Assembly: GCF_037120705.1 (NCBI RefSeq)
Contig: NZ_JAWLJU010000002.1
Coordinates: 2,351,001 to 2,415,000, forward strand
Origin: Pseudoalteromonas sp. UG3-2
Lineage (GTDB): Bacteria > Pseudomonadota > Gammaproteobacteria > Enterobacterales > Alteromonadaceae
Reading direction: 5' to 3'
DNA length: 64,000 nucleotides
Positions within the stretch are counted from its first letter, which is position 1, and every line of letters begins with the position of its first letter. The position numbers and the translations under genes are program-made. Positions 2 through 31,860 of this stretch are shown here, in pieces. The notes beneath the pieces were generated by a model. The model saw nothing but the letters and a program-made list of their open reading frames with translations. It was not told where the DNA came from and did no database searches.

Positions 2-100
2 CAAAGCTCTCGGCTTGGTATGGTGTTGCTCTTACTTAATTTACTCAGCAACGAAGCTATAATGACTTACGCGATAAATGCTCAACTAGCTAAAAGTTAA
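2..100 (+). CDS. possible C-terminal end of a plus-strand gene entering the window
   Basis: One plus-strand frame is open from base 2 to a TAA at 98-100 and would encode about 32 residues, mostly hydrophobic in the first half and ending NAQLAKS. It overlaps the stop of the convergent thioesterase gene by about 15 bases. No family is recognisable in so short a piece, and an open frame of this size can occur by chance. The gene, if real, starts outside the window. Confidence 0.2.
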   Translation, partial: QSSRLGMVLLLLNLLSNEAIMTYAINAQLAKS

Positions 101-850
101 GTGTTTTGTCTTAGTAAAATCAACTCCATTAAAAAAGTCGTTCAATTTATTAATTATTTTCTCTTGCTGCGTATCTATAAAAAAGTGACCACCATCAAAG
201 GCAACTGAATCAAAACCAAGAAATAATTCACCCCACATTTCAACTTCTTTCTCAGATACCGCATCGCTTTTGCCATAAAACACAGTTACTTCCGAGGGAA
301 CTGTTACACTTCCTTGATATGAATATTGCCCTGCCACCTTAAAGTCTGCACGTAACATAGGTAGGTAAAGCTCCATGAGCTCTCGGTTAGCTAAAATTTC
401 CTCAGGTGTTCCTTTCATTCGTTCTAACTCGCGCATAAACTCCGAGTCTTCATATTCATATACTTTGTCTTTAAAGCACTGCTTTTGAGGCCCAGCACTT
501 CCAGAGGCAAAAAAGTGCTGTGGCGCTTTGAGCCCTAGCTCTAATGCACTGCAAACGACTTCAAAACCAACTCGACTTCCCAGACTGTGACCGAATATGA
601 CATAGTCTTTAGATAATAAATGGGTTATTTTAGGTACAAGTTCCGCAATGAGTTCATCCATACTATCTATAGGTGCTCTATCGAAATGAGCCCCTCTTCC
701 TGGTAATTGAATGATATTTACTTCAACGTGTTCAGGTAATTGACTGGGCCAAGAGCAAAAAGAACCAACACTGCCACCTGCGTAGGGAAAGCAGATTAAC
801 CTTACAGTTGCATTAGGTCTTGGTCTTGGTGTTATGTACCATTTATTCAT
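86..850 (-). CDS. type II thioesterase (alpha/beta hydrolase, GrsT/RedJ-like)
   Basis: A 254-residue alpha/beta hydrolase of the type II thioesterase family. These are stand-alone enzymes that hydrolyse wrong or stalled acyl groups from carrier-protein arms of non-ribosomal peptide and polyketide synthases in the cytoplasm. The nucleophile elbow GHSLG lies at residues 87-91 (Ser89), the N-terminal FPYAGG at 21-26 is typical of the family, and Asp196 and His222 (in GGHFF) complete the triad. Length matches the family (about 240-260). The ATG is preceded by a GGGA-type ribosome site. It lies 17 bases downstream of a small gene on the same strand, so the two probably form an operon. No synthetase is visible here, so the partner assembly line must lie outside the window or elsewhere in the genome. 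Confidence 0.85.
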   Translation of the reverse strand: MNKWYITPRPRPNATVRLICFPYAGGSVGSFCSWPSQLPEHVEVNIIQLPGRGAHFDRAPIDSMDELIAELVPKITHLLSKDYVIFGHSLGSRVGFEVVCSALELGLKAPQHFFASGSAGPQKQCFKDKVYEYEDSEFMRELERMKGTPEEILANRELMELYLPMLRADFKVAGQYSYQGSVTVPSEVTVFYGKSDAVSEKEVEMWGELFLGFDSVAFDGGHFFIDTQQEKIINKLNDFFNGVDFTKTKHLTFS

Positions 851-867
851 ATATATCCCACTTAGTA

Positions 868-1104
868 TCAGTTGAGCTGTTGGCTTAATTGTTCCAAATC
901 CATTTCAAGCTGCAGGTCAACAGCCTGAGACTGTAAAAATACACCATCCAAAGCATCAACTTTACCTCGTGAATAGCCTTGCTCATACGCCCACTTAATA
1001 AGCTGTAACTCTTTGCTGGATAGTGACTTCGTAATTGGCATGCTACGTCCCTTTGTTTTATTGTAGAGTTTTACGTATTGTTTTTCTTCAGTATTGCGGA
1101 GCAT
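868..1104 (-). CDS. small protein of unknown function upstream of the thioesterase
   Basis: This encodes a hydrophilic 78-residue protein of no family I recognise. The reading frame can be extended three codons to a GTG at 1113, but the ATG at 1104 is preferred because a GAGGTG ribosome site sits 8 bases upstream of it. The middle part (about residues 25-50) looks helical and is followed by an acidic, glutamine-rich tail with leucines spaced as in an amphipathic helix. There is no signal peptide, membrane segment or cysteine. The position directly upstream of the thioesterase, on the same strand, suggests co-transcription. Its role is unknown. Confidence 0.55.
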   Translation of the reverse strand: MLRNTEEKQYVKLYNKTKGRSMPITKSLSSKELQLIKWAYEQGYSRGKVDALDGVFLQSQAVDLQLEMDLEQLSQQLN

Positions 1105-1799
1105 TTCGACCACACCTCAACTATTAACATAACGACAAGAAATAAAGCTTTGTTGTAAAGAGCTTCACCATTTCGACACCAACAATATTACAGTTAAGTT
1201 GTGACTTGTGGTAATTATGAAATGTTATTTAATGCACGTTAAAGAAACAAATAAACACATGAATTAAAAGGATAAATAAAACAATATTTAATTCTATCAA
1301 AATAACAATTGTCATTATTACCAGCTACTTTAAGACGCAAACTAACTCTGAGCCTACAACCCCTCTATACATCACATAATTATAACAATCCATTCAACGC
1401 CCGTGTTCTTAATCAGGGTGCTAATTGATATCAAAGAAATCTGAACCTAAAGGAAGGAAAAAATAAAACATAAACAACAAAATCAAAGACTTAAAAAATA
1501 ACCTTATCTTAATATATTACTTTTAATCACAGTAAAACAGCCGCACGTCCAATAGTATCGTAAGCAAAATGGTAACAGCTCTTTCATGTTGGCCTTTAGG
1601 GCGGAGAGAATTAGGTATTGGCTTAACCAAAAGTGCTTTGTTACAATGAGACATAAACTGAAATTATCTTACAACTTTGAGGCCTGTAGTGCTTGCTTGC
1701 GCGGAGCCGTTCTTACAAGCTTCAAGGGTGTTACGAAGACAGCAATCGGCTGCTCTTGTTGTACCTATTTTGTAATCTATTTAATTGAGCATAATTAAA
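1105..1799. other. AT-rich intergenic region
   Basis: About 695 bases without a convincing gene, between the thioesterase operon (leftward) and the ParB-like gene (rightward). It is strongly AT-rich. A 70-codon open frame at 1586-1798 lacks a ribosome site and resembles no protein. A Fur-box-like palindrome is noted at 1301-1319. Promoters for both flanking units must lie here, but none stands out. Confidence 0.5.
1301..1319. promoter_or_regulatory. possible Fur-box-like palindrome
   Basis: The 19 bases AATAACAATTGTCATTATT match the 19-bp Fur consensus GATAATGATAATCATTATC at about 13 positions by eye. It lies about 200 bases upstream of the small gene and thioesterase operon. Type II thioesterases often accompany siderophore synthetases, which would make iron control sensible. 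The match is imperfect, and AT-rich DNA gives chance hits. Confidence 0.25.
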
Positions 1800-2879
1800 A
1801 TGTCCGAAAAATTAGAACAACTCATATTATCGAATGTGAATAACAAAGAACTGTTTCACTCCGAGACCTACGAATATCAGTCGCTATTTCTCAGCTCGGT
1901 TGTACCCGACCCCTCAAACGCTAGGTTTATGCCTTGTATCTTTATGGAAGATGAGCACGCCAAACAGTTTGTAACCCGTAATATTTCTAAAAAGCAATTG
2001 AGTAAAATATATCAAGCGGAAGATCATGTCCTGATAGGTAAATCATGCATAATTAACTGTTTAAAATATGGCAGCCCAGAGTGGAAAAAAGCTAACACTA
2101 CAATTGAATCGATCGTTGAGCTGGGTGAAAATATTGCAGTGTCTGAGATGATTCAAGCTCCTACAGTTTACCCAGATGAAGATGGAAAATATAAAATATT
2201 AACGGGCCACAGGCGCTTCTTCGCTCTTGTTTTCGCATACGGCTTTGGGCATGTAGCGCAATTCAAAGTTTATGAAAAAAAACCGCTTTTATCTAAAGTT
2301 AAGCAGTTTCAGGAAAACGCTAGTAGAGAGGACTTGCCACAGTATGGCAAGTTACAAGCGTTTTTATCTGCAATGAGAGAGATTGAAGCCTTAGATCAAG
2401 CTCGATTGAAGGTAGGAGACAAAAAGCTAACAGTAAGGGATAAAGCCAAGAATTTGGGAATTTCTATGGGAGCTTATGATAACTATAATGTCCTCACTCG
2501 ATACCCTGAGGTCATTAATGCATATGAACAAGGCCTGTCTCACTCTTTTTTAAGCGTCAAGAAGGTAGTACTTAAGGTTGAAAATGAATATAAATTAGAA
2601 CATAACAAAAGCCAACTTAACCTTTCTGACAGAAAGCAGATCGGAAAAACCATTGAGCAACAACTCATAGGCCCCAAACCTAACAGAAATAAAAAACGGC
2701 AACTTAGTATCAAGGAAATTCCATCGGTCAACGTGCTTAAAACTCTGCTATTTAAAGATGTTTCAACGCTTAACACGGAAATTGATTGGCACAGCCTAGA
2801 TTGGGAAGATAATCAAAGTGTAAATGCTGCAATAACTCAACTCATTTCCGTTATGGCAGAGCAAGAGTTTGAAAAGTAA
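1800..2879 (+). CDS. orphan ParB/Spo0J-like nuclease-domain protein
   Basis: A 359-residue protein with the N-terminal fold of ParB/RepB/Spo0J proteins, which bind centromere-like DNA sites and load CTP-dependent clamps. Visible marks are PDPSNARF (36-43), the TGHRRF box (135-140, equivalent to GERR in chromosomal ParB) and QENASREDL (171-179, equivalent to ENIQREDLN). A helix-turn-helix region probably follows around 205-235 (TVRDKAKNLGISMGAYDN). It differs strongly from the chromosomal ParB at 15472-16419 and has no ParA partner beside it. Such orphan ParB-like proteins are typical of plasmids and integrated elements. The start is uncertain: a TTG at 1785 is in frame, but the ATG at 1800 is preferred, though neither has a good ribosome site. 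Confidence 0.7.
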   Translation: MSEKLEQLILSNVNNKELFHSETYEYQSLFLSSVVPDPSNARFMPCIFMEDEHAKQFVTRNISKKQLSKIYQAEDHVLIGKSCIINCLKYGSPEWKKANTTIESIVELGENIAVSEMIQAPTVYPDEDGKYKILTGHRRFFALVFAYGFGHVAQFKVYEKKPLLSKVKQFQENASREDLPQYGKLQAFLSAMREIEALDQARLKVGDKKLTVRDKAKNLGISMGAYDNYNVLTRYPEVINAYEQGLSHSFLSVKKVVLKVENEYKLEHNKSQLNLSDRKQIGKTIEQQLIGPKPNRNKKRQLSIKEIPSVNVLKTLLFKDVSTLNTEIDWHSLDWEDNQSVNAAITQLISVMAEQEFEK

Positions 2880-3214: not shown

Positions 3215-3766
3215 TTATCTAACCAAAGACAAGCAACTTGACTTATCAAAGTGTAAATTTATTTCTTTTTTTGGCTCTATCTCTAATATTTTATTATTGT
3301 AGGATGGTAGCTCAAATGTAGTCAGCAGCTGCTTGCCTGTGCTTCCTGTCACTGTTAACTCAAGTGCTTCACTGTCTAAGCAGAGCCATAATGAATCGGC
3401 AATTTTCGCTCTCTCATATTGCGAGCCGGAAAAGCCAACAATCGCTAAAACCTCAGAGCTAGACACAATAGAGGCCAAAGACCCAGCTTGTATACTTTCA
3501 TTAGCATTAACACTATCCGTAATAATAAATTCCACATAGCCAGATTCTTGTGCACTCATACTTTTTGTTTGCTGCTCTTTACTCGAGCGGTACTTCAAGA
3601 GTGTTTGCCCTTTCTCTACCCGCTCTCCTGGCTTAACTGGAAGCTCAACAACTAAAGCAGCTTCTTGGAAGTAATAAAAGACTTCTGAAGGCTTTGTGAT
3701 CTTAATATTCCCTGTCATATTCGCTGTTGATAACAGCAATAAAGGTGCCAAACTAATGGAACTCAA
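3215..3766 (-). CDS. small HlyD-like / lipoyl-fold protein, possible periplasmic adaptor
   Basis: A 183-residue protein with a hydrophobic N-terminus (SLAPLLLLSTA) that may be a signal sequence. It is followed by a biotinyl-lipoyl-like hairpin (VELPVKPGERVEKGQTLLKY, about 40-59) and, after a short hydrophilic insert, a second half (SGYVEFI to LASIV, about 75-101) typical of membrane-fusion adaptors. The next stretch (VLAIVGFSGSQYERAKIADSLWL) resembles the beta-barrel part of HlyD proteins. It is much shorter than normal adaptors (350-450) and lacks the long coiled coil. The TTG start at 3766 is supported by GGAG six bases upstream. It lies 138 bases downstream of the two tandem GG-leader peptides on the same strand, so a link to peptide export is tempting but unproven. 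No ABC transporter is present. Confidence 0.55.
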   Translation of the reverse strand: MSSISLAPLLLLSTANMTGNIKITKPSEVFYYFQEAALVVELPVKPGERVEKGQTLLKYRSSKEQQTKSMSAQESGYVEFIITDSVNANESIQAGSLASIVSSSEVLAIVGFSGSQYERAKIADSLWLCLDSEALELTVTGSTGKQLLTTFELPSYNNKILEIEPKKEINLHFDKSSCLSLVR

Positions 3767-3904: not shown

Positions 3905-4069
3905 CTAACCAGTTGTATAGCTTGTATAGTCATGTGTGATAAGCGGCTTTACATCTGGTATTTGGGTAGGCGCTAAGTCTCCTCCTGCAATTTTACGTGT
4001 ATGTTGTAGCTCTACTCCTTTAGTGTTTGATAGCTTTTTTAATTGTTTCTTTTTTAGTGTAAGTAACAT
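3905..4069 (-). CDS. tandem GG-leader peptide A (RiPP-precursor-like)
   Basis: A 54-residue peptide gene found by translating the minus strand. It begins MLLTLKKKQLKKLSN, ends the first part with TRKIAGG (residues 24-30) and finishes with ITHDYTSYTTG (44-54). It is paired with a second copy at 4124-4291: the first 30 residues differ at only 3 positions and the last 11 are identical, while the middle differs and carries a one-residue indel. A basic leader with a KKLS element ending in Gly-Gly is the layout of precursor peptides for ribosomally made natural products and some exported bacteriocins. There is no Cys, but many Thr, Ser and Tyr in the tail. An AGAGG ribosome site lies 10-14 bases upstream. 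Function unknown; no modifying enzyme is adjacent. Confidence 0.7.
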   Translation of the reverse strand: MLLTLKKKQLKKLSNTKGVELQHTRKIAGGDLAPTQIPDVKPLITHDYTSYTTG

Positions 4070-4123
4070 GATCACTTTACCTCTAGTTGCTATTTAGTTC
4101 TTATATTTGCGAGTGTTGATTAA

Positions 4124-4291
4124 TTAACCTGTTGTGTAGCTTGTATAGTCATGCGTGATTCGCTCCTTTGCATCAGGCAATTGGTTAGACGCTAAATCTT
4201 CTCCCCCTGCAACTTTACGTGTATGTTGTAGCTCTAAACCTTTGCTGTTTGATAGTTTTTTTAATTGCTTCTTTTTTAGTGTTAATAACAT
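4124..4291 (-). CDS. tandem GG-leader peptide B (RiPP-precursor-like)
   Basis: A 55-residue peptide gene, the upstream copy of the pair with 3905-4069, separated from it by 54 bases. It begins MLLTLKKKQLKKLSN, has TRKVAGG at 24-30 and ends ITHDYTSYTTG (45-55). The middle segment EDLASNQLPDAKER is unlike that of copy A. An AGGA ribosome site lies 8 bases upstream of the ATG. Protein-level conservation at both ends with a changed middle, including mostly synonymous differences at DNA level in the leader, supports real coding genes under selection. It is probably co-transcribed with copy A and perhaps with the HlyD-like gene. What matures or exports the peptide is not visible. Confidence 0.7.
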   Translation of the reverse strand: MLLTLKKKQLKKLSNSKGLELQHTRKVAGGEDLASNQLPDAKERITHDYTSYTTG

Positions 4292-4857
4292 GCTTAATTT
4301 CCTAATTTTGTAGTTATCTTGTAGTACAGCACCCTTGATTGATGAATCACCTGAGTGCCTAATAACAATAGCTAACTTGCTTAAACAGTAGTAATTATCA
4401 AAGCTTATTTTTAAGATAAGAAACCTCCTTTAACTACATGATTTAAAAGATTTTAAAAAACATTCGGAAGCGATACCCTCCTAATAATAATTACTGTCTG
4501 TATAATTTTAAGAAACACAGTTCTGCTTTAGTCAAACCGCAACCTTTACTAATAGAAGATAATCCAATTATTGAGATCTTGAATGACAAAAGAGCAAACA
4601 GAAGCCACAAGCAAAGTGTGAACAAGAACCCTTAGCAACCATAAACATATTCAGTACCTAGCCGACAGCGTCTTTAGGTATTATTGCTAAATTAGTTAGT
4701 GAAACTACAAGCAAGTCAAGACAAGGAACCCGCTTGCAAAATCATCTTTCGAGCGAATACAGAGGTTCTACATATATTCGAGAAGCCGATTCACGATTCC
4801 ATGACTCACCTTTTGCATTGCGCAAAAAGTCAAAGCAGAAGCCAAACTTTAGAATCA
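4292..4857. other. intergenic region upstream of the tandem peptides
   Basis: About 565 AT-rich bases containing the presumed promoter of the peptide operon. A strong ribosome-site-like AAAGGAGG exists on the minus strand at 4424-4431, but no start codon follows it at a usable distance; it is followed by a small hairpin. Two overlapping plus-strand frames at 4699-4919 resemble no protein. No gene is supported. Confidence 0.45.
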
Positions 4858-5244
4858 TCAACGAGCTCTTACTTTATGGAGCCAAGAAGCCTCTGTTTGT
4901 TCTAGACTTCTTGACTTAACGAAATACATATTCGGCCTAACAGCGGCTTCTGTAACAGTAAACGCATCATTTCTGTCATTTTTATTGCCTTTCACAAAAG
5001 CTTTTACATGGATTGGTGGTATAAGTCTGACTGCAAAGTCTAGCTTTTCCAATTCACGTCCCCAGTAGTTTGAACCAGAGCACGCTTCCCTAGCTATGAC
5101 GGCATCTGGATATTCCAGTAAGAAGGTAAATAATTTATTTCGCTTCAACGCTTTCTTTATTAAAGACACACTTTCCAGCCTGATTTACGCCACAAACCTG
5201 TAAGTATTCTTTGCTAAATCTATTCCTATTAGACATACTTTCAT
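4858..5244 (-). pseudogene. IS110-family transposase, N-terminal remnant with frameshifts
   Basis: The minus strand from the ATG at 5244 reads MKVCLIGIDLAKNTY, the usual N-terminus of IS110-type (DEDD) transposases. It continues in another frame as QVCGVNQAGKCVFNK, then in a third register up to a stop at 4858 with AREACSGSNYWGREL, KAFVKGNKNDRNDA and EAAVRPNMYFVKSRS, all hallmark segments. At least two frameshifts are needed and only about 130 of roughly 340 residues remain, so it is a dead fragment. The catalytic DEDD core starts in this piece (D of GIDLAK) but the C-terminal serine-containing domain is missing. No terminal repeats are expected for this family. The remnant marks past mobile-element activity in this accessory region. 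Confidence 0.8.
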
Positions 5245-5858: not shown

Positions 5859-7979
5859 TCAATTGTTGGGAGAGCCTTTATATTTAAGCTTAAATAGGTG
5901 ATTATTAATGGGCTTAATTATATCGACTAATAGCTTTCCCCTATTAAATTCAATATCCTTAATTCTCCCTTGTCCCGGTAAGGTAAATAATAACTTCGCG
6001 CTGTCGTCTGTCTGATAGTCAATTTGATAAATATTATATCCATCGGTGTGGTATATTTGATCTCCAGCTACTGTAAGTTTATGCTGGCTGAACGCTTTCG
6101 GCAGGGCAACTTCTATAATTGACTCACCAAGTTTGCGATCAAAAATTTCAACTTTGTCTTTCGTTGACAAAGAAACATATAAGTCTTTGTTAATTGAAGA
6201 AAGCCACAGCACATCCTGCATAGGCAAGGTTGAGATCAGCTTGCTTTCCCTTGAATAGATATATGCTTTATTTTTCGACCTTTCCACTGATACATAACCA
6301 ATATCACCATTTTGTAAAAAATCAGCCGATATCACTCGCCCTGTAGTTTGGATTGTGTCCAATAAGCGCCATTTATTCGAGTCATATATCTCAAGTCGAT
6401 TTTCAAATTTCAGCAATACCTCTTGGTAGTCTCTGCGAGCTTCAACATCAAAAAGCTCTTCACTTGTTAGGCGGGAATCAACAATAGAACCACTTTCGTC
6501 CAGTTCGAACAATGTCGCCTTACCGTTTTTAACTGCAACCGTAAAGTAGCCATTTTCCTTCGGTGAAGATGATCTATGATATGCAACCTCTTTGTTCAAC
6601 TGGTTAAACTGCAAACTTTTAAGGTTTAGCTGATTTAACTGATGTAAATATGGATACCCAACGACGAGCATATTTTTCCAGTCTATCGACTGATAACTCG
6701 AGTAGCGGCTATCCCCTAGGGCTTGAATTTTTTTAACTAACTTTTTTGATTTTAAAGAATACTCATAAATTTTCTTTTCAAATGGCTGCATCCAGATAAG
6801 TGTATTACGAGCACTATCATAATTAACAGACCATATCCTGTTCTTAGACTCGTAAAGCTTTACTAAGTTACCTCCTTCAGATTCTGTCATATAAAGTTCT
6901 GAAAACCCAGGCTGGCGACGCTCAAAAAACACACTATCAAGAGATTCGGAGTAGTGAAGAAAATGATCCCCATGTGAGTTAATATTTGGAGAAGTAATCT
7001 GAAACTCTTCACCTGTCGCTAAGTTTCTGTTCACCAGTGCCGACAACTCATCTCTGTTTCGGTAATTATTTTTTGTATAAATAAAAGAGTTTTCACCTAC
7101 GCCAGCCCCAAATGTCATACGTAGTTCGCAATCAAATAGAGGTCGGTTAGCTGAAGTAAAATCGCGGCTAATCTTCCATACCTTGCAACTTTTATTTTTA
7201 ATATCTACCACTCGGTAAAACAAAGACGAGCTGTCTGACGCCCAGCCCATTGGAAAAAAATGAAACTTCTCTTCACCCAACCGTTGCTCTTTACCATCCC
7301 TTAAATCCTTAACTACCAGATAGCTTTTATCTTGATCTTCAGGAATAAAAGAGAAAGCTGCATAATTTTTGTCTGGTGACAATAGTAATATATTATACTG
7401 ACCATCCATCCAAGACAGGGCTTGTTCCTCGTATTTTTTTTTGCTCAATTCAAGCGTGCTACTCTTACTAACTTCATGTGGCAAAGAGTAAAAATACCCT
7501 CCTACTAGAAAGGTAAGTGTAAATATAATAATAGAAATAAAAATAAGTGGGCTTTTTTTGCGTTTATCGTTTACCTCAGGTTGTATCCCTGAAACTTTCC
7601 CTTGCTTTTGAGGTTGAGGATACTCCGCCTCTTCGTGATATATAACTATAGGCTCGACAAAAAAGCTATAGCCTTTCCGGTAATGTGTTTTTACTATAGC
7701 CCCTTTCTGTCGATCGGATTTTAGAACCTTACGAAGTTCAGATATCGCTCTGTTAATGGCATTATCATCAACAAAATTCTGTCTCCAAACATCATCAACA
7801 AGATCTTGCCTCGTAATAATCTGGTCACAATTTATGGCCAAATAACAAAGAATATTGAATAAAAGAGGCTCTAATTCGCGCTCAACTTCCCCATCAGATA
7901 TGCATTGGCGTCGTGGATCTAGTGTCCATGCACCAAATATAACTTCTTTTACCTTTCTGGAAAAATTAACTTCATTCAT
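5859..7979 (-). CDS. ToxR/CadC-type transmembrane regulator with beta-propeller-like sensor
   Basis: A 706-residue one-component regulator. Residues 11-110 form an OmpR-type winged helix (FGAWTLDPRRQCIS; LLFNILCYLAIN; IITRQDLVDDVW; INRAISELRKVL; HYRKGYSFF). A lysine-rich linker is followed by a single membrane segment at about 144-164, leaving about 540 residues in the periplasm. That part is built of repeated short strands with patterns such as LSPDKNYAAFSFIP, GWASDSSSLFYRV and WMQPFEKKIYEYSLKSKK, resembling TolB/WD-like beta-propellers. This layout is common in Alteromonadales. The cytoplasmic domain would bind DNA while still membrane-anchored. It is alone, facing the peptide and IS110 region; its target genes are not evident. 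Confidence 0.8.
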   Translation of the reverse strand: MNEVNFSRKVKEVIFGAWTLDPRRQCISDGEVERELEPLLFNILCYLAINCDQIITRQDLVDDVWRQNFVDDNAINRAISELRKVLKSDRQKGAIVKTHYRKGYSFFVEPIVIYHEEAEYPQPQKQGKVSGIQPEVNDKRKKSPLIFISIIIFTLTFLVGGYFYSLPHEVSKSSTLELSKKKYEEQALSWMDGQYNILLLSPDKNYAAFSFIPEDQDKSYLVVKDLRDGKEQRLGEEKFHFFPMGWASDSSSLFYRVVDIKNKSCKVWKISRDFTSANRPLFDCELRMTFGAGVGENSFIYTKNNYRNRDELSALVNRNLATGEEFQITSPNINSHGDHFLHYSESLDSVFFERRQPGFSELYMTESEGGNLVKLYESKNRIWSVNYDSARNTLIWMQPFEKKIYEYSLKSKKLVKKIQALGDSRYSSYQSIDWKNMLVVGYPYLHQLNQLNLKSLQFNQLNKEVAYHRSSSPKENGYFTVAVKNGKATLFELDESGSIVDSRLTSEELFDVEARRDYQEVLLKFENRLEIYDSNKWRLLDTIQTTGRVISADFLQNGDIGYVSVERSKNKAYIYSRESKLISTLPMQDVLWLSSINKDLYVSLSTKDKVEIFDRKLGESIIEVALPKAFSQHKLTVAGDQIYHTDGYNIYQIDYQTDDSAKLLFTLPGQGRIKDIEFNRGKLLVDIIKPINNHLFKLKYKGSPNN

Positions 7980-8262
7980 GATGAGCGCAATATAATTATA
8001 ATTAATTCCTTAATTTTATATAATGACACATTGAAAACAACTACTTATTACAATTACATAAAAAAATAGTTACATTTGTACCAAATAACGCACAAAAAAC
8101 ACTCTTTCACACTAAAGAAATAAAAAATTTAATGAAAAAGTACCAGCAAGTGACAGCCAATAAATATAACCGGCATCAAAGTCCGTGCTGACTATTCTTA
8201 CATGACCATAAAAAAACCCACACTCTTCAGTGTGGGTTTTTTATAACCAGATAGGTGGTTGG
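7980..8262. other. intergenic region after the ATP synthase operon
   Basis: About 280 AT-rich bases holding the presumed promoter of the leftward regulator gene and, near the right end, the terminator of the ATP synthase operon. In many gammaproteobacteria glmU follows atpC; it is not here, consistent with this being the joint between core and accessory DNA. Confidence 0.5.
8210..8242 (-). terminator. intrinsic terminator of the ATP synthase operon
   Basis: The arms CCCACACT and AGTGTGGG around a CTTC loop form a strong hairpin flanked by A-runs and T-runs, so it can work in both directions. It sits 20 bases after the atpC stop codon on the minus strand. Confidence 0.9.
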
Positions 8263-15471: not shown

Positions 15472-16419
15472 TTACTCTGGCGAGCCGTTCATTTCGGCAT
15501 TAATGCGCCCTAAAATACCATCGAGCTCGTCAAGGTTTGCATAAGAAATCACCAACTTACCTTTGCCTTTTTGGTTATAGTTGATTTCCACTTTGGCGCC
15601 TAGGTTTTCTTGCAATTGTTGCTCTAACAACTGCACATCTGGGTCTTTTGCTTTGGGTTCTTTTTTCGCCACCGGCTCTAAAATACTGCGCACTAGCTTT
15701 TCTGTTTCACGCACCGTTAGGCCTTTCGCTACCGCGGTACGCGCGGCTTCTGATTGCGGCTCACCAGTAAGGGCTAGCAAACAACGGGCATGGCCCATCT
15801 CAATGTCGCCATGCTCCAACAATATTTTAACATCATCGTTAAGATTATTGAGGCGCAACAGGTTGGTCACTGTGGTGCGAGACTTGCCTACGGCATCTGC
15901 CACTTGTTGGTGAGTAAGCTCAAACTCATTAAGTAAACGGTCTAATGCGATGGCTTCTTCCATGGCATTGAGATCTTCACGCTGAATATTTTCGATAAGC
16001 GCAATGGCAACAGCGGCTTCATCCGGTACATCCTTGATAATACAAGGAACCGACTCTTGTTTTGCTAATTGCGCAGCACGCCAGCGTCTTTCACCAGCAA
16101 TGATTTCATAACTTTGCCCTGCAACTTTGCGCACCACAATCGGCTGCAAAATGCCTTGCGAGCGAATGGAGCTAGCAAGCTCTTCGAGCGCTTGCTCTGA
16201 CATATCTTTACGCGGCTGATAGCGACCAGGCTTAAGCCACTCAATCGCCAAGCGCTGTAATTCTTGTTCTGTATTAGTTGTGCTTGGGGTCGGTGCTGGG
16301 GTTGCGCCAGCATCTTGCTCAGGCTGCTCAGAAACTGCTTTAGGTGTCGTTGGGTCAGGTTTGGCAGAACTCAATAGGGCGTCCAATCCTCGGCCTAAAC
16401 CGCGTTTTTTAACCGACAT
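15472..16419 (-). CDS. parB: chromosome partitioning protein ParB
   Basis: The 315-residue chromosomal centromere-binding protein. It binds parS and spreads as a CTP-dependent clamp, guiding origin segregation with ParA and loading SMC/MukB-type complexes. Motifs include KRGLGRGLDALL (5-16), a proline/threonine-rich linker (20-50), the CTP box GERRWRA (109-115), ENIQREDLN (143-151) and the helix-turn-helix QQVADAVGKSRTTVTNLLRL. The C-terminal dimerisation segment ends near 315. It lies 24 bases after parA. Three parS sites that it should recognise lie at 23060, 33397 and 34030 in this window. Confidence 0.97.
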   Translation of the reverse strand: MSVKKRGLGRGLDALLSSAKPDPTTPKAVSEQPEQDAGATPAPTPSTTNTEQELQRLAIEWLKPGRYQPRKDMSEQALEELASSIRSQGILQPIVVRKVAGQSYEIIAGERRWRAAQLAKQESVPCIIKDVPDEAAVAIALIENIQREDLNAMEEAIALDRLLNEFELTHQQVADAVGKSRTTVTNLLRLNNLNDDVKILLEHGDIEMGHARCLLALTGEPQSEAARTAVAKGLTVRETEKLVRSILEPVAKKEPKAKDPDVQLLEQQLQENLGAKVEINYNQKGKGKLVISYANLDELDGILGRINAEMNGSPE

Positions 16420-30459: not shown

Positions 30460-31860
30460 GTGTATCTGTCAGTTTGGCAAAGTTGTTTATATGTTTTGCA
30501 AGATGAGTTGCCATCCCAGCAATTTAGTATGTGGGTGAGACCATTACAGGCTGAAAGTACAGATGATACGCTGACCATTTACGCACCTAATCGTTTTGTG
30601 TTGGATTGGGTCCGTGAAAAGTATTTGCACCGTATTAATGAATTACTGGTGGAAATTTGTGGTGATGAAGCGCCAGAGTTGCGTTTTGATGTTGGAAGTA
30701 AGCCTGTGTTGGCAACGCAAAACAGTGCCGTAAGCAACGATAAGTTGGCCTCTGTGGCTACGCCTGAGCAGGTTACAGCGACAGCCAACAGTCAGCCAAA
30801 AGTTGCCGAGAAGGTCGAGCCTGCCCCTAAGTCTGCGCATAAATCCAATATTAAAGAAAACTATACCTTTGATAACTTTGTCGAGGGTAAATCAAACCAA
30901 TTAGCAAAAGCCGCTGCTACCCAGGTGGCCGATAATCCAGGTTCGGCGTTTAACCCCGTGTTTATCTATGGCGGCACAGGTTTAGGTAAAACGCACCTAT
31001 TGCATGCCGTAGGCAATGGCATCATCGAGCAAAAGCCAGATGCTAAGATTGTCTATATGCATTCGGAACGATTTGTTCAAGATATGGTAAAGGCACTGCA
31101 AAATAATGCCATTGAAGAATTCAAGCGCTATTATCGTAGTGTTGATGCCTTAATGATCGATGACATCCAGTTTTTTGCCAACAAAGAACGCTCTCAAGAA
31201 GAATTCTTCCATACCTTTAATGCTTTGTTGGAAGGCAATCAGCAAATCATACTGACTTCAGATCGCTATCCAAAGGAAATTGAAGGGGTAGAAGATCGTT
31301 TAAAGTCGCGTTTTGGTTGGGGATTAACCATTGCCATTGAACCCCCAGAGCTAGAAACTCGCGTGGCTATTTTGATGAAAAAAGCGCAGCAGAGTAAAAT
31401 TAATCTACCGCACGAGGTGGCTTTCTTTATTGCCAAGAAATTACGTTCCAATGTGAGAGAGCTGGAAGGGGCGTTAAACCGGGTAATTGCCAATGCTAAT
31501 TTTACCGGTCGACCTATTTCTATCGACTTCGTTAAAGAAGCATTACGTGATTTATTAGCGCTACAAGATAAATTGGTGACCATCGATAATATTCAACGCA
31601 CGGTGGCTGAATATTATCGCATTCGGGTATCTGATTTATTATCTAAGCGACGTAGCCGCTCTGTGGCTCGGCCAAGACAAGTTGCTATGGCGCTGTCAAA
31701 AGAGCTAACCAATCATAGTTTGCCAGAAATTGGCGATGCTTTTGGTGGGCGAGATCACACCACTGTTTTGCATGCATGCAGAAAAGTGAAAGAGTTACGT
31801 GACGAGAGTCATGAAGTGAAAGAAGATTATCAAAACTTAATTAGAACGCTGTCTTCTTAA
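30460..31860 (+). CDS. dnaA: replication initiator DnaA
   Basis: The 466-residue AAA+ initiator that binds the DnaA boxes and opens oriC. The N-terminal DnaB-interaction domain begins [18 protein letters not shown], the linker is proline and lysine-rich (about 85-130), the Walker [10 protein letters not shown] is at about 171-179, Walker B contains MIDDIQFF, and the C-terminal DNA-binding signature is [18 protein letters not shown]. The GTG at 30460 is the start because GGAG lies 6 bases upstream; a TTG at 30448 overlaps that site and is excluded. Confidence 0.98.

Follow-up and report, generated by a model that had tools for sequence, protein, structure and literature searches.

Introduction

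Prochlorosin-type systems pair one LanM enzyme with many scattered precursors. Double-glycine peptide autoinducers (CSP, Blp, nisin-type) are textbook in Gram-positive bacteria, and Gram-negative counterparts were reportedly proposed on genomic grounds by Dirix et al. in 2004. Transmembrane regulators of the ToxR/CadC type usually respond to environmental cues. A review of this regulator type includes WmpR of P. tunicata (PMC10269533), and neither 'propeller' nor 'WD40' occurs in its main text. Within Pseudoalteromonas, class I lanthipeptides have been described from P. flavipulchra S16 (pseudorosins A–C, with PsfB; PMC12819058) and from P. citrea DSM 8771 (PciA; PMC9993889). Gram-positive autoinducing double-glycine peptides (PMC7595303) served as a further comparison system.

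We analysed a 64,000-nucleotide stretch of DNA from Pseudoalteromonas sp. UG3-2 (the window; G000 C2:2351001-2415000, where G000 is the window's genome, other G-numbers are genomes of the genus and L-numbers are loci). Like the pseudorosins and PciA, the window system belongs to Pseudoalteromonas and has LanB/LanC-type machinery; it differs from them in that its peptides, being Cys-free, are unable to form lanthionine, and in their link with a regulator and an operator-like element. As in prochlorosin systems, a single modification system goes with numerous scattered precursors that have a common leader and varied cores, but the enzymes are LanB/LanC (class I) rather than LanM (class II), and the window peptides form a Cys-free subclass. 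With Gram-positive autoinducers it shares the GG leader, the C39 transporter, a peptide gene beside that of a membrane receptor, and a conserved upstream element. Here, however, the host is Gram-negative, a one-component CadC-like regulator replaces histidine kinase and response regulator, the leader is common to a lanthipeptide system, and we infer signalling from the genes. The regulator is of ToxR/CadC type in its N-terminal winged helix, one probable membrane helix and predicted periplasmic domain; the difference is that its periplasmic part consists of two predicted beta-propellers. What is new is the Cys-free regulator-linked subclass; its Cys-containing class I lanthipeptide relatives in the genus are known. 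In the openly licensed PMC literature we recognised no paper on Cys-free regulator-linked peptides of Pseudoalteromonas, which is not proof of absence.

Results

The features of the locus are given below. A preliminary description, made from the letters of this DNA, had picked out the peptides and missed both the CadC-like regulator (5859-7979, minus strand) and the elements at 4389-4425 and 1209-1245 (both minus strand).

86..850, minus strand: thioesterase (PF00975, 126.5 bits), second gene of a run that continues beyond the window
868..1113, minus strand: 81-aa ORF with no function assigned, heading this same-strand run toward NRPS genes
1209..1245, minus strand: second operator-like element scoring 18.9 bits (core ATAACATTTCATAATTAC), 95 bp ahead of the 81-aa ORF
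3215..3766, minus strand: short adaptor-like protein beside the peptides (Biotin_lipoyl 18.6 bits, cut-off 22.1)
3905..4069, minus strand: second gene of the array, for a Cys-free GG-leader peptide of 54 aa, MLLTLKKKQLKKLSNTKGVELQHTRKIAGGDLAPTQIPDVKPLITHDYTSYTTG
4124..4291, minus strand: first gene of the array, for a Cys-free GG-leader peptide of 55 aa, MLLTLKKKQLKKLSNSKGLELQHTRKVAGGEDLASNQLPDAKERITHDYTSYTTG
4389..4425, minus strand: conserved operator-like element scoring 33.5 bits, GGTTTCTTATCTTAAAAATAAGCTTTGATAATTACTA, 97 bp ahead of the first peptide
5859..7979, minus strand: CadC-like transmembrane regulator, 706 aa, with a winged helix (~1-115), a probable membrane helix (145-164) and predicted propellers (179-700)
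G000 C2:2285047-2293045, all on one strand: LanB, LanC, C39-peptidase ABC transporter and HlyD, assigned by family matches

Leader and tail are under purifying selection

The two small minus-strand genes of 54 and 55 residues reported in the preliminary description correspond to open reading frames at 4069-3905 and 4291-4124. Reinspection of these frames reproduced three differences within leader residues 1-30, a final 11 residues (ITHDYTSYTTG) that are the same in both, and an unlike middle with an indel. Neither window peptide matched an NCBIfam or Pfam family at E<=5. Frame-conserved homologues were found as three tandem copies in G045 and one copy in G084 (taken to be Pseudoalteromonas sp. 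S2755, in which a copy was matched); GG and tail are kept in them, with a change of Y to F in the tail of one copy per species. By the Nei-Gojobori method, applied to leader plus tail, dN/dS was 0.10 between the two window genes. Of the eight pairs of a window copy with a G045 or G084 copy, six gave 0.03-0.05, and the other two were not computable, their synonymous sites being saturated. Leader and tail are thus under purifying selection, with ratios of 0.03-0.10 rather than near 1, which rules out random ORFs. In all six copies the frames stop at the tail, so the peptides are not fragments of a longer unrelated protein. The earlier idea of a conserved core with a variable spacer is also supported.

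The leader is that of a class I lanthipeptide family

The window leader belongs to the class I lanthipeptide leader family of Pseudoalteromonas. A profile built from 29 leaders (A1; consensus MKLxLKKKxLKxLSxxxxLxxxxTxxIAGG, ending in double glycine) matched 55 of 108 Pseudoalteromonas genomes at E<=0.1; some related arrays have leaders ending in GA, not GG. LanB (PF04738) was present in 51 of the 108, and at E<=0.05 the leader was found in 51/51 LanB genomes versus 0/57 LanB-less ones. The weakest best match among LanB genomes had an E-value of 7.2e-5 (G016), and the four other leader genomes gave a single match each, at E between 0.05 and 0.1. The double-glycine leader and RiPP-type precursor of the preliminary description are therefore upheld; its label 'unknown' is not, since the leader is that of a class I lanthipeptide family present in every LanB genome. 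In an order-level sample of 394 genomes the leader was matched in five at E<=0.001, namely two in Pseudoalteromonas (one being the window's), two in another genus of the family and one in another family; cores of the three genomes outside Pseudoalteromonas contain Cys.

The LanB match is single in 47 of the 51 LanB genomes, and leader-type matches are scattered. They number up to at least 75 per genome, this maximum coming from a genome with a single LanB match and being a lower bound, as 75 is also the number of candidates scored there. One class I LanB with up to at least 75 scattered leader matches per genome amounts to a large natural substrate library.

The preliminary description had held that the machinery must act in trans or has been lost. 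LanB, LanC, a C39-peptidase ABC transporter and HlyD are located on the same chromosome as the window peptides, consistent with action in trans; with all four components found, loss is not needed as an explanation and is ruled out. The family search gave one match each to LanB, LanC and C39 in G000. The near edge of the LanB locus is ~62 kb from the window peptides and the C39 transporter ~63 kb away. LanB (G000 C2:2285047-2288178) matched Lant_dehydr_N with 429 bits and Lant_dehydr_C with 205 bits, an assignment at the level of domains rather than of single catalytic residues. LanC matched LANC_like with 140 bits and, aligned to NisC, retains the WCYG and CHG positions, whose Cys and Cys-His we take to be zinc ligands. 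The transporter matched Peptidase_C39 with 121 bits and keeps a Cys (EAAECGLAS, aligned where HlyB has DYGLYA with Tyr at the Cys position), presumably the functional Cys of the C39 peptidase. Large genes lie between the LanB locus and the window; of the four tested next to the window, three encode NRPS or AMP-binding proteins and the fourth an ABC transporter.

G000 has six leader peptides. The window's two are Cys-free, and the four elsewhere, Cys-containing precursors with the same leader, have 2, 4, 4 and 5 Cys, one of them lying just past the HlyD gene of the LanB locus. The LanB locus of G045 itself holds leader-type Cys-containing precursors. A lanthionine is formed from Cys and Ser/Thr; neither window core has a Cys, and the window peptides are therefore unable to carry one.

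The regulator-linked peptides form a Cys-free subclass

The window peptides belong to a distinct subclass that is Cys-free, Thr-rich, often tandem and encoded beside a CadC-like regulator. In a census of all 107 leader-profile matches at E<=0.05 in seven genomes, whose cores were read, 12/12 peptides within 3 kb of a regulator homologue were Cys-free, compared with 3/95 elsewhere (one with a three-residue core), and 88/95 of the latter had at least two Cys; a Fisher test of these counts overstates independence, the species being related.

Regulator homologues at >=34% identity number 49, of which 45 are in LanB genomes. By hand tally, 42 of these 45, in 35 genomes, have an intact leader peptide within ~3 kb; the remaining three are one of the two G106 regulators, G081 (leader fragment only) and one G053 cassette (frameshift). 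Thirty-eight of the 42 have Cys-free cores and four have one Cys (second copies of G033 and G031, G042, G104). Weak leader-profile scores among the 42 were 11.7 bits in G001 and 5.3 bits in G016. In the LanB-less genomes G068, G091 and G020 neither leader peptide nor element was found on either side of the regulator homologue (0/3); a fourth, G017, was left out, its contig ending 74 bases past the regulator. Homologues of ~26-31% identity were excluded from the 45. Among the distant homologues inspected, those of G018, G024, G027 and G093 have no leader peptide; beside those of G014, G046 (second copy), G076, G071 and G061 a leader peptide is present and no element was found. Divergent leader-like peptides of the form MKIKL(K/R)NCNFPKLSITSTEDKA..., with Cys within the leader, adjoin more distant regulator homologues in G025 and G029 (L134, L135, ~3190).

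Array cores are short (13-38 aa) and Thr/Ser-rich (227/845 residues). Many carry TNTDT(V/I)T or variants, ITHDYTSYTTG being the version of the window clade. Tandem arrays repeat the same core or close variants, as in G009 (four, identical), G010 (five), G031 (five) and G062 (four), and a single precursor with three NTDTVT(Q/R) repeats occurs in G033 and in G026. With labels assigned by eye, core type broadly matches regulator clade, and where a genome has two cassettes each keeps its own type.

A CadC-like regulator with two predicted propellers

The winged helix of the regulator is supported by matches to Trans_reg_C (56 bits) and to CadC 5ju7 (50 bits). Residues 145-164 are a probable membrane helix, judged from sequence and model, and residues 179-700 are predicted to form two periplasmic beta-propellers, an architecture in agreement with the ToxR/CadC type (winged helix, single membrane helix, extracytoplasmic domain). 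A fold search with the whole regulator gave many propeller matches; long alignments to LRP6 had an rmsd near 19 A with the two domains fitted together, and were taken only as 'two propellers'.

Divergence of the cores goes with that of the C-terminal propeller (partial r 0.53 with the N-terminal propeller controlled for); with the DNA-binding domain there is no such relation (partial r -0.10 with the propellers controlled for). Leader divergence, however, tracks the propellers more strongly (r 0.82, partial 0.79) than core divergence does (r 0.67, partial 0.61), and shared inheritance of linked genes could therefore explain the correlation.

In the window, and likewise in seven of the ten other displayed loci, atp genes are the neighbours of the regulator (L036, L037, L041, L044, L048, L074, L076). 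Among 55 regulator genes, distant homologues included, 35 share a contig with LanB, 16 at up to 20 kb, 27 at up to 50 kb and 31 at up to 110 kb.

An operator-like element precedes the peptides and an NRPS gene run

The element ATAAGnTTTgATAAtTaC lies between regulator and array. A regular expression matched it in 29 of 45 regions downstream of regulators, a set that differs from the 45-regulator tally by including G076 and the second copy of G046 and leaving out the second copies of G053 and G031. A matrix of 27 bits was built from those 29 sites, which the matrix scan then recovered. The scan also gave variants of 25-26 bits in G033, G104 and G026, and further variants precede the peptides of G034, G040, G046 (12.0 bits), G007, G094 and G016. 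In 1.46 Mb of loci, which overlap and were picked for holding regulators or leader peptides, 35 of 38 distinct sites of at least 16 bits precede a leader peptide, intact or broken; the other three precede the small ORF of the window and its look-alikes in G084 and G034. Element scores before the look-alike ORF were 14.4 bits in G045, 16.2 in G084 and 20.4 in G034. In whole genomes some sites of 17-20 bits stand elsewhere than before a leader peptide (L277, L287, L288, L292), for example one of 20.1 bits at G009 C12:1053733.

Pattern searches of single genomes were compared with reversed-pattern controls and showed the element to be rare. With at most one mismatch, ATAAGNTTTKATAAYTNC was matched once in the 4.16 Mb of G000, at the array (control 0); three times in G045, the array's being perfect (control 2); three times in G009, again with the array's perfect (control 1); and four times in G086, each with one mismatch and one at the array (control 2), so that three further places there fit the pattern no worse than the site at the array. 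When up to two mismatches were allowed, ATAASMTTTSATAATTAC had six matches in G000, where only the two window sites were perfect and four had two mismatches (control 1), five in G045, with array and small ORF perfect and three at two mismatches (control 2), and three in G034, all at two mismatches and one before the small ORF (control 1); as ATAASMTTTSATAATTAC was fitted to both window sites, the one informative outcome is that no other perfect matches turned up.

The second window element stands before a gene run that starts with the 81-aa ORF and the thioesterase and continues outside the window on the same strand with, in order, an outer-membrane efflux protein, a further large protein, a glyoxalase-fold protein, an AMP-binding/carrier protein, an NRPS, an ABC transporter and an NRPS. 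The matrix scan gave no element of at least 10 bits in the LanB locus of G000 (L062), and direct control of LanB by the regulator is therefore not supported. A k-mer count upstream of the 95 census members away from regulators (84 after removing identical ends) yielded mainly RBS-like AAGGA words; thus no common regulatory motif was seen for the whole leader family. The putative element could be bound by a protein other than the regulator.

A proposed signalling circuit and its alternatives

As in an autoinducing circuit, peptide and regulator are linked across species and a conserved element precedes the peptide genes. Starting from the leader family, the machinery in the genome, the subclass, its synteny, the conserved element, selection and the predicted fold, we infer a circuit whose steps would be processing, modification, export, peptide sensing, DNA binding and feedback. 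The array would be transcribed from the promoter with the putative element ATAAGnTTTgATAAtTaC. LanB may dehydrate some Thr or Ser, with no lanthionine ring forming for want of Cys, and the leader would then direct the peptide to the C39 transporter encoded ~63 kb away, a double-glycine ABC transporter that would cleave it behind Gly-Gly and release the tail-containing fragment by export. In the periplasm or outside, ITHDYTSYTTG would be recognised by the neighbouring CadC-like regulator as its cognate signal, probably through the fast-evolving C-terminal propeller. The regulator would in turn activate ATAAGnTTTgATAAtTaC promoters, both that of the peptide array, giving positive feedback, and that of the small-ORF/thioesterase/NRPS run. 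That an exported signal peptide is sensed by the regulator, which controls the array and the NRPS genes, is our best reading, and we hold it evenly poised between right and wrong. Counting against it, besides the stronger correlation of the leaders, are the four array cores with one Cys, the distant regulator homologues with no peptide or with a peptide but no element, the element-like sites away from leader peptides (among them the three in G086) and the regulators of G106, G081 and G053 that have no intact peptide. The fuller description as a Gram-negative pheromone system, with tandem Cys-free RiPP-leader peptides, C39 export, a double-propeller CadC-like receptor, 'pherotypes', autoinduction and NRPS control, is offered tentatively, as somewhat more likely to fail in some part than to hold throughout.

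It is also quite possible, if short of probable, that the peptides are exported unmodified, the shared leader serving the C39 transporter and LanB having no role, an arrangement compatible with signalling. The cores lack Cys for ring formation, and the regulator has a C39 transporter at a distance of 3-5 kb in G107, G051, G095, G053 and G054, and likewise in G061, G046 and G076 with their more distant regulator homologues, while LanB in those genomes is farther off or on another contig. Thr/Ser-rich cores (227/845 residues) speak for a LanB role instead, as do the LanB-less G068, G091 and G020, which have a regulator homologue but no such peptide; since C39 was matched only weakly in G091 and in G020 (once in each, 37-40 bits, over the cut-off) and not at all in G068, these three genomes do not distinguish LanB from the transporter. 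Less likely, in our judgement, are the peptides to be effectors (an antimicrobial or other secreted product) beside a regulator that answers another cue. Elsewhere in the leader family the peptides resemble lanthipeptide precursors (88/95 of those away from regulators have at least two Cys), and heterologous production is described for related class I lanthipeptides of Pseudoalteromonas (PMC9993889; the pseudorosins are named in PMC12819058). Environmental cues are moreover the usual stimulus of ToxR/CadC-type regulators (table in PMC10269533). Yet the regulator-linked peptides are mostly without Cys, unlike those other members; they have short cores (13-38 aa) that resemble one another within an array and differ from one regulator clade to the next, and genomes with two cassettes keep separate core types in each.

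A secreted structural or biofilm-related small peptide seems improbable. GG-motif small proteins are reported in Synechococcus biofilm development (PMC4997328), but such a role leaves the link with the regulator and the operator-like element unexplained. Least credible, and already disfavoured, is the notion of decay, in which duplicated lanthipeptide precursor genes would have lost both their Cys and their function: the window is without the ABC genes of G045 and G084 and carries an IS110-type remnant, and broken copies exist in G081 and G053, but dN/dS is 0.03-0.10, the tail is conserved, the promoter element is kept and cassettes are intact in 35 genomes (hand tally).

If the signalling reading is true, the locus would be a Gram-negative counterpart of autoinducing double-glycine peptides. 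Signalling would then account for the Cys-free subclass within a lanthipeptide family, join RiPP and NRPS production in one circuit, and perhaps offer a switch for silent biosynthetic clusters in marine bacteria. The locus is a genetically testable candidate, comprising peptide, putative receptor and two DNA elements, with related cassettes in 35 genomes by tally.

Neighbourhood of the cassette

No ABC transporter gene adjoins the peptides in the window, as the preliminary description had said; the statement needs qualifying in that the next gene downstream (3215-3766, minus strand) is weakly adaptor-like, and that in G045 and G084 genes for an ABC ATPase and for an FtsX-type permease, both absent in the window, come after the same gene. 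A protein of 166-193 residues follows the peptides in 10 of 11 displayed loci (the window, L036, L037, L041, L044, L045, L048, L074, L076 and L077; not L072), and none was seen after the peptides of the second cassette in L041. Its adaptor likeness is weak: of five copies tested, three matched Biotin_lipoyl or HlyD_D23 below threshold and two matched neither. Further along, L074 has glmU-HlyD-C39-LanC-LanB, and L045 is alike, its display ending inside LanC. L044 (G107), L072 (G061), L076 (G051) and L077 (G062) have a DUF4440-like protein (the likeness scored in L044 only, sub-threshold), HlyD and a second C39 transporter. In these four loci that transporter is separate from the LanB-linked one.

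The interval between regulator and peptides is 1568 bp in the window, where it holds an IS110 remnant, ~0.9 kb in G045 and ~1.1 kb in G084. The remnant is of an IS110-type transposase (4858-5169, minus strand, with more frames at 4699-4919, plus strand; PF01548 22.6 bits, cut-off 29). A ParB-like protein (1785-2879, plus strand; TIGR00180 26.6 bits, below cut-off) occupies the same place in G045 and G084, and a second ParB-looking ORF, distinct from it, lies at 15472-16419. At gathering thresholds Rfam gave a single match in the window, far from the peptide locus: AsdA, the antisense RNA of dnaA, at 30967-31047 (minus strand; 56.7 bits, gathering score 52). Near the cassette in L041 (G031), at ~7643-8125, an open frame encodes a long His-Ser-Thr repeat, perhaps only a DNA repeat.
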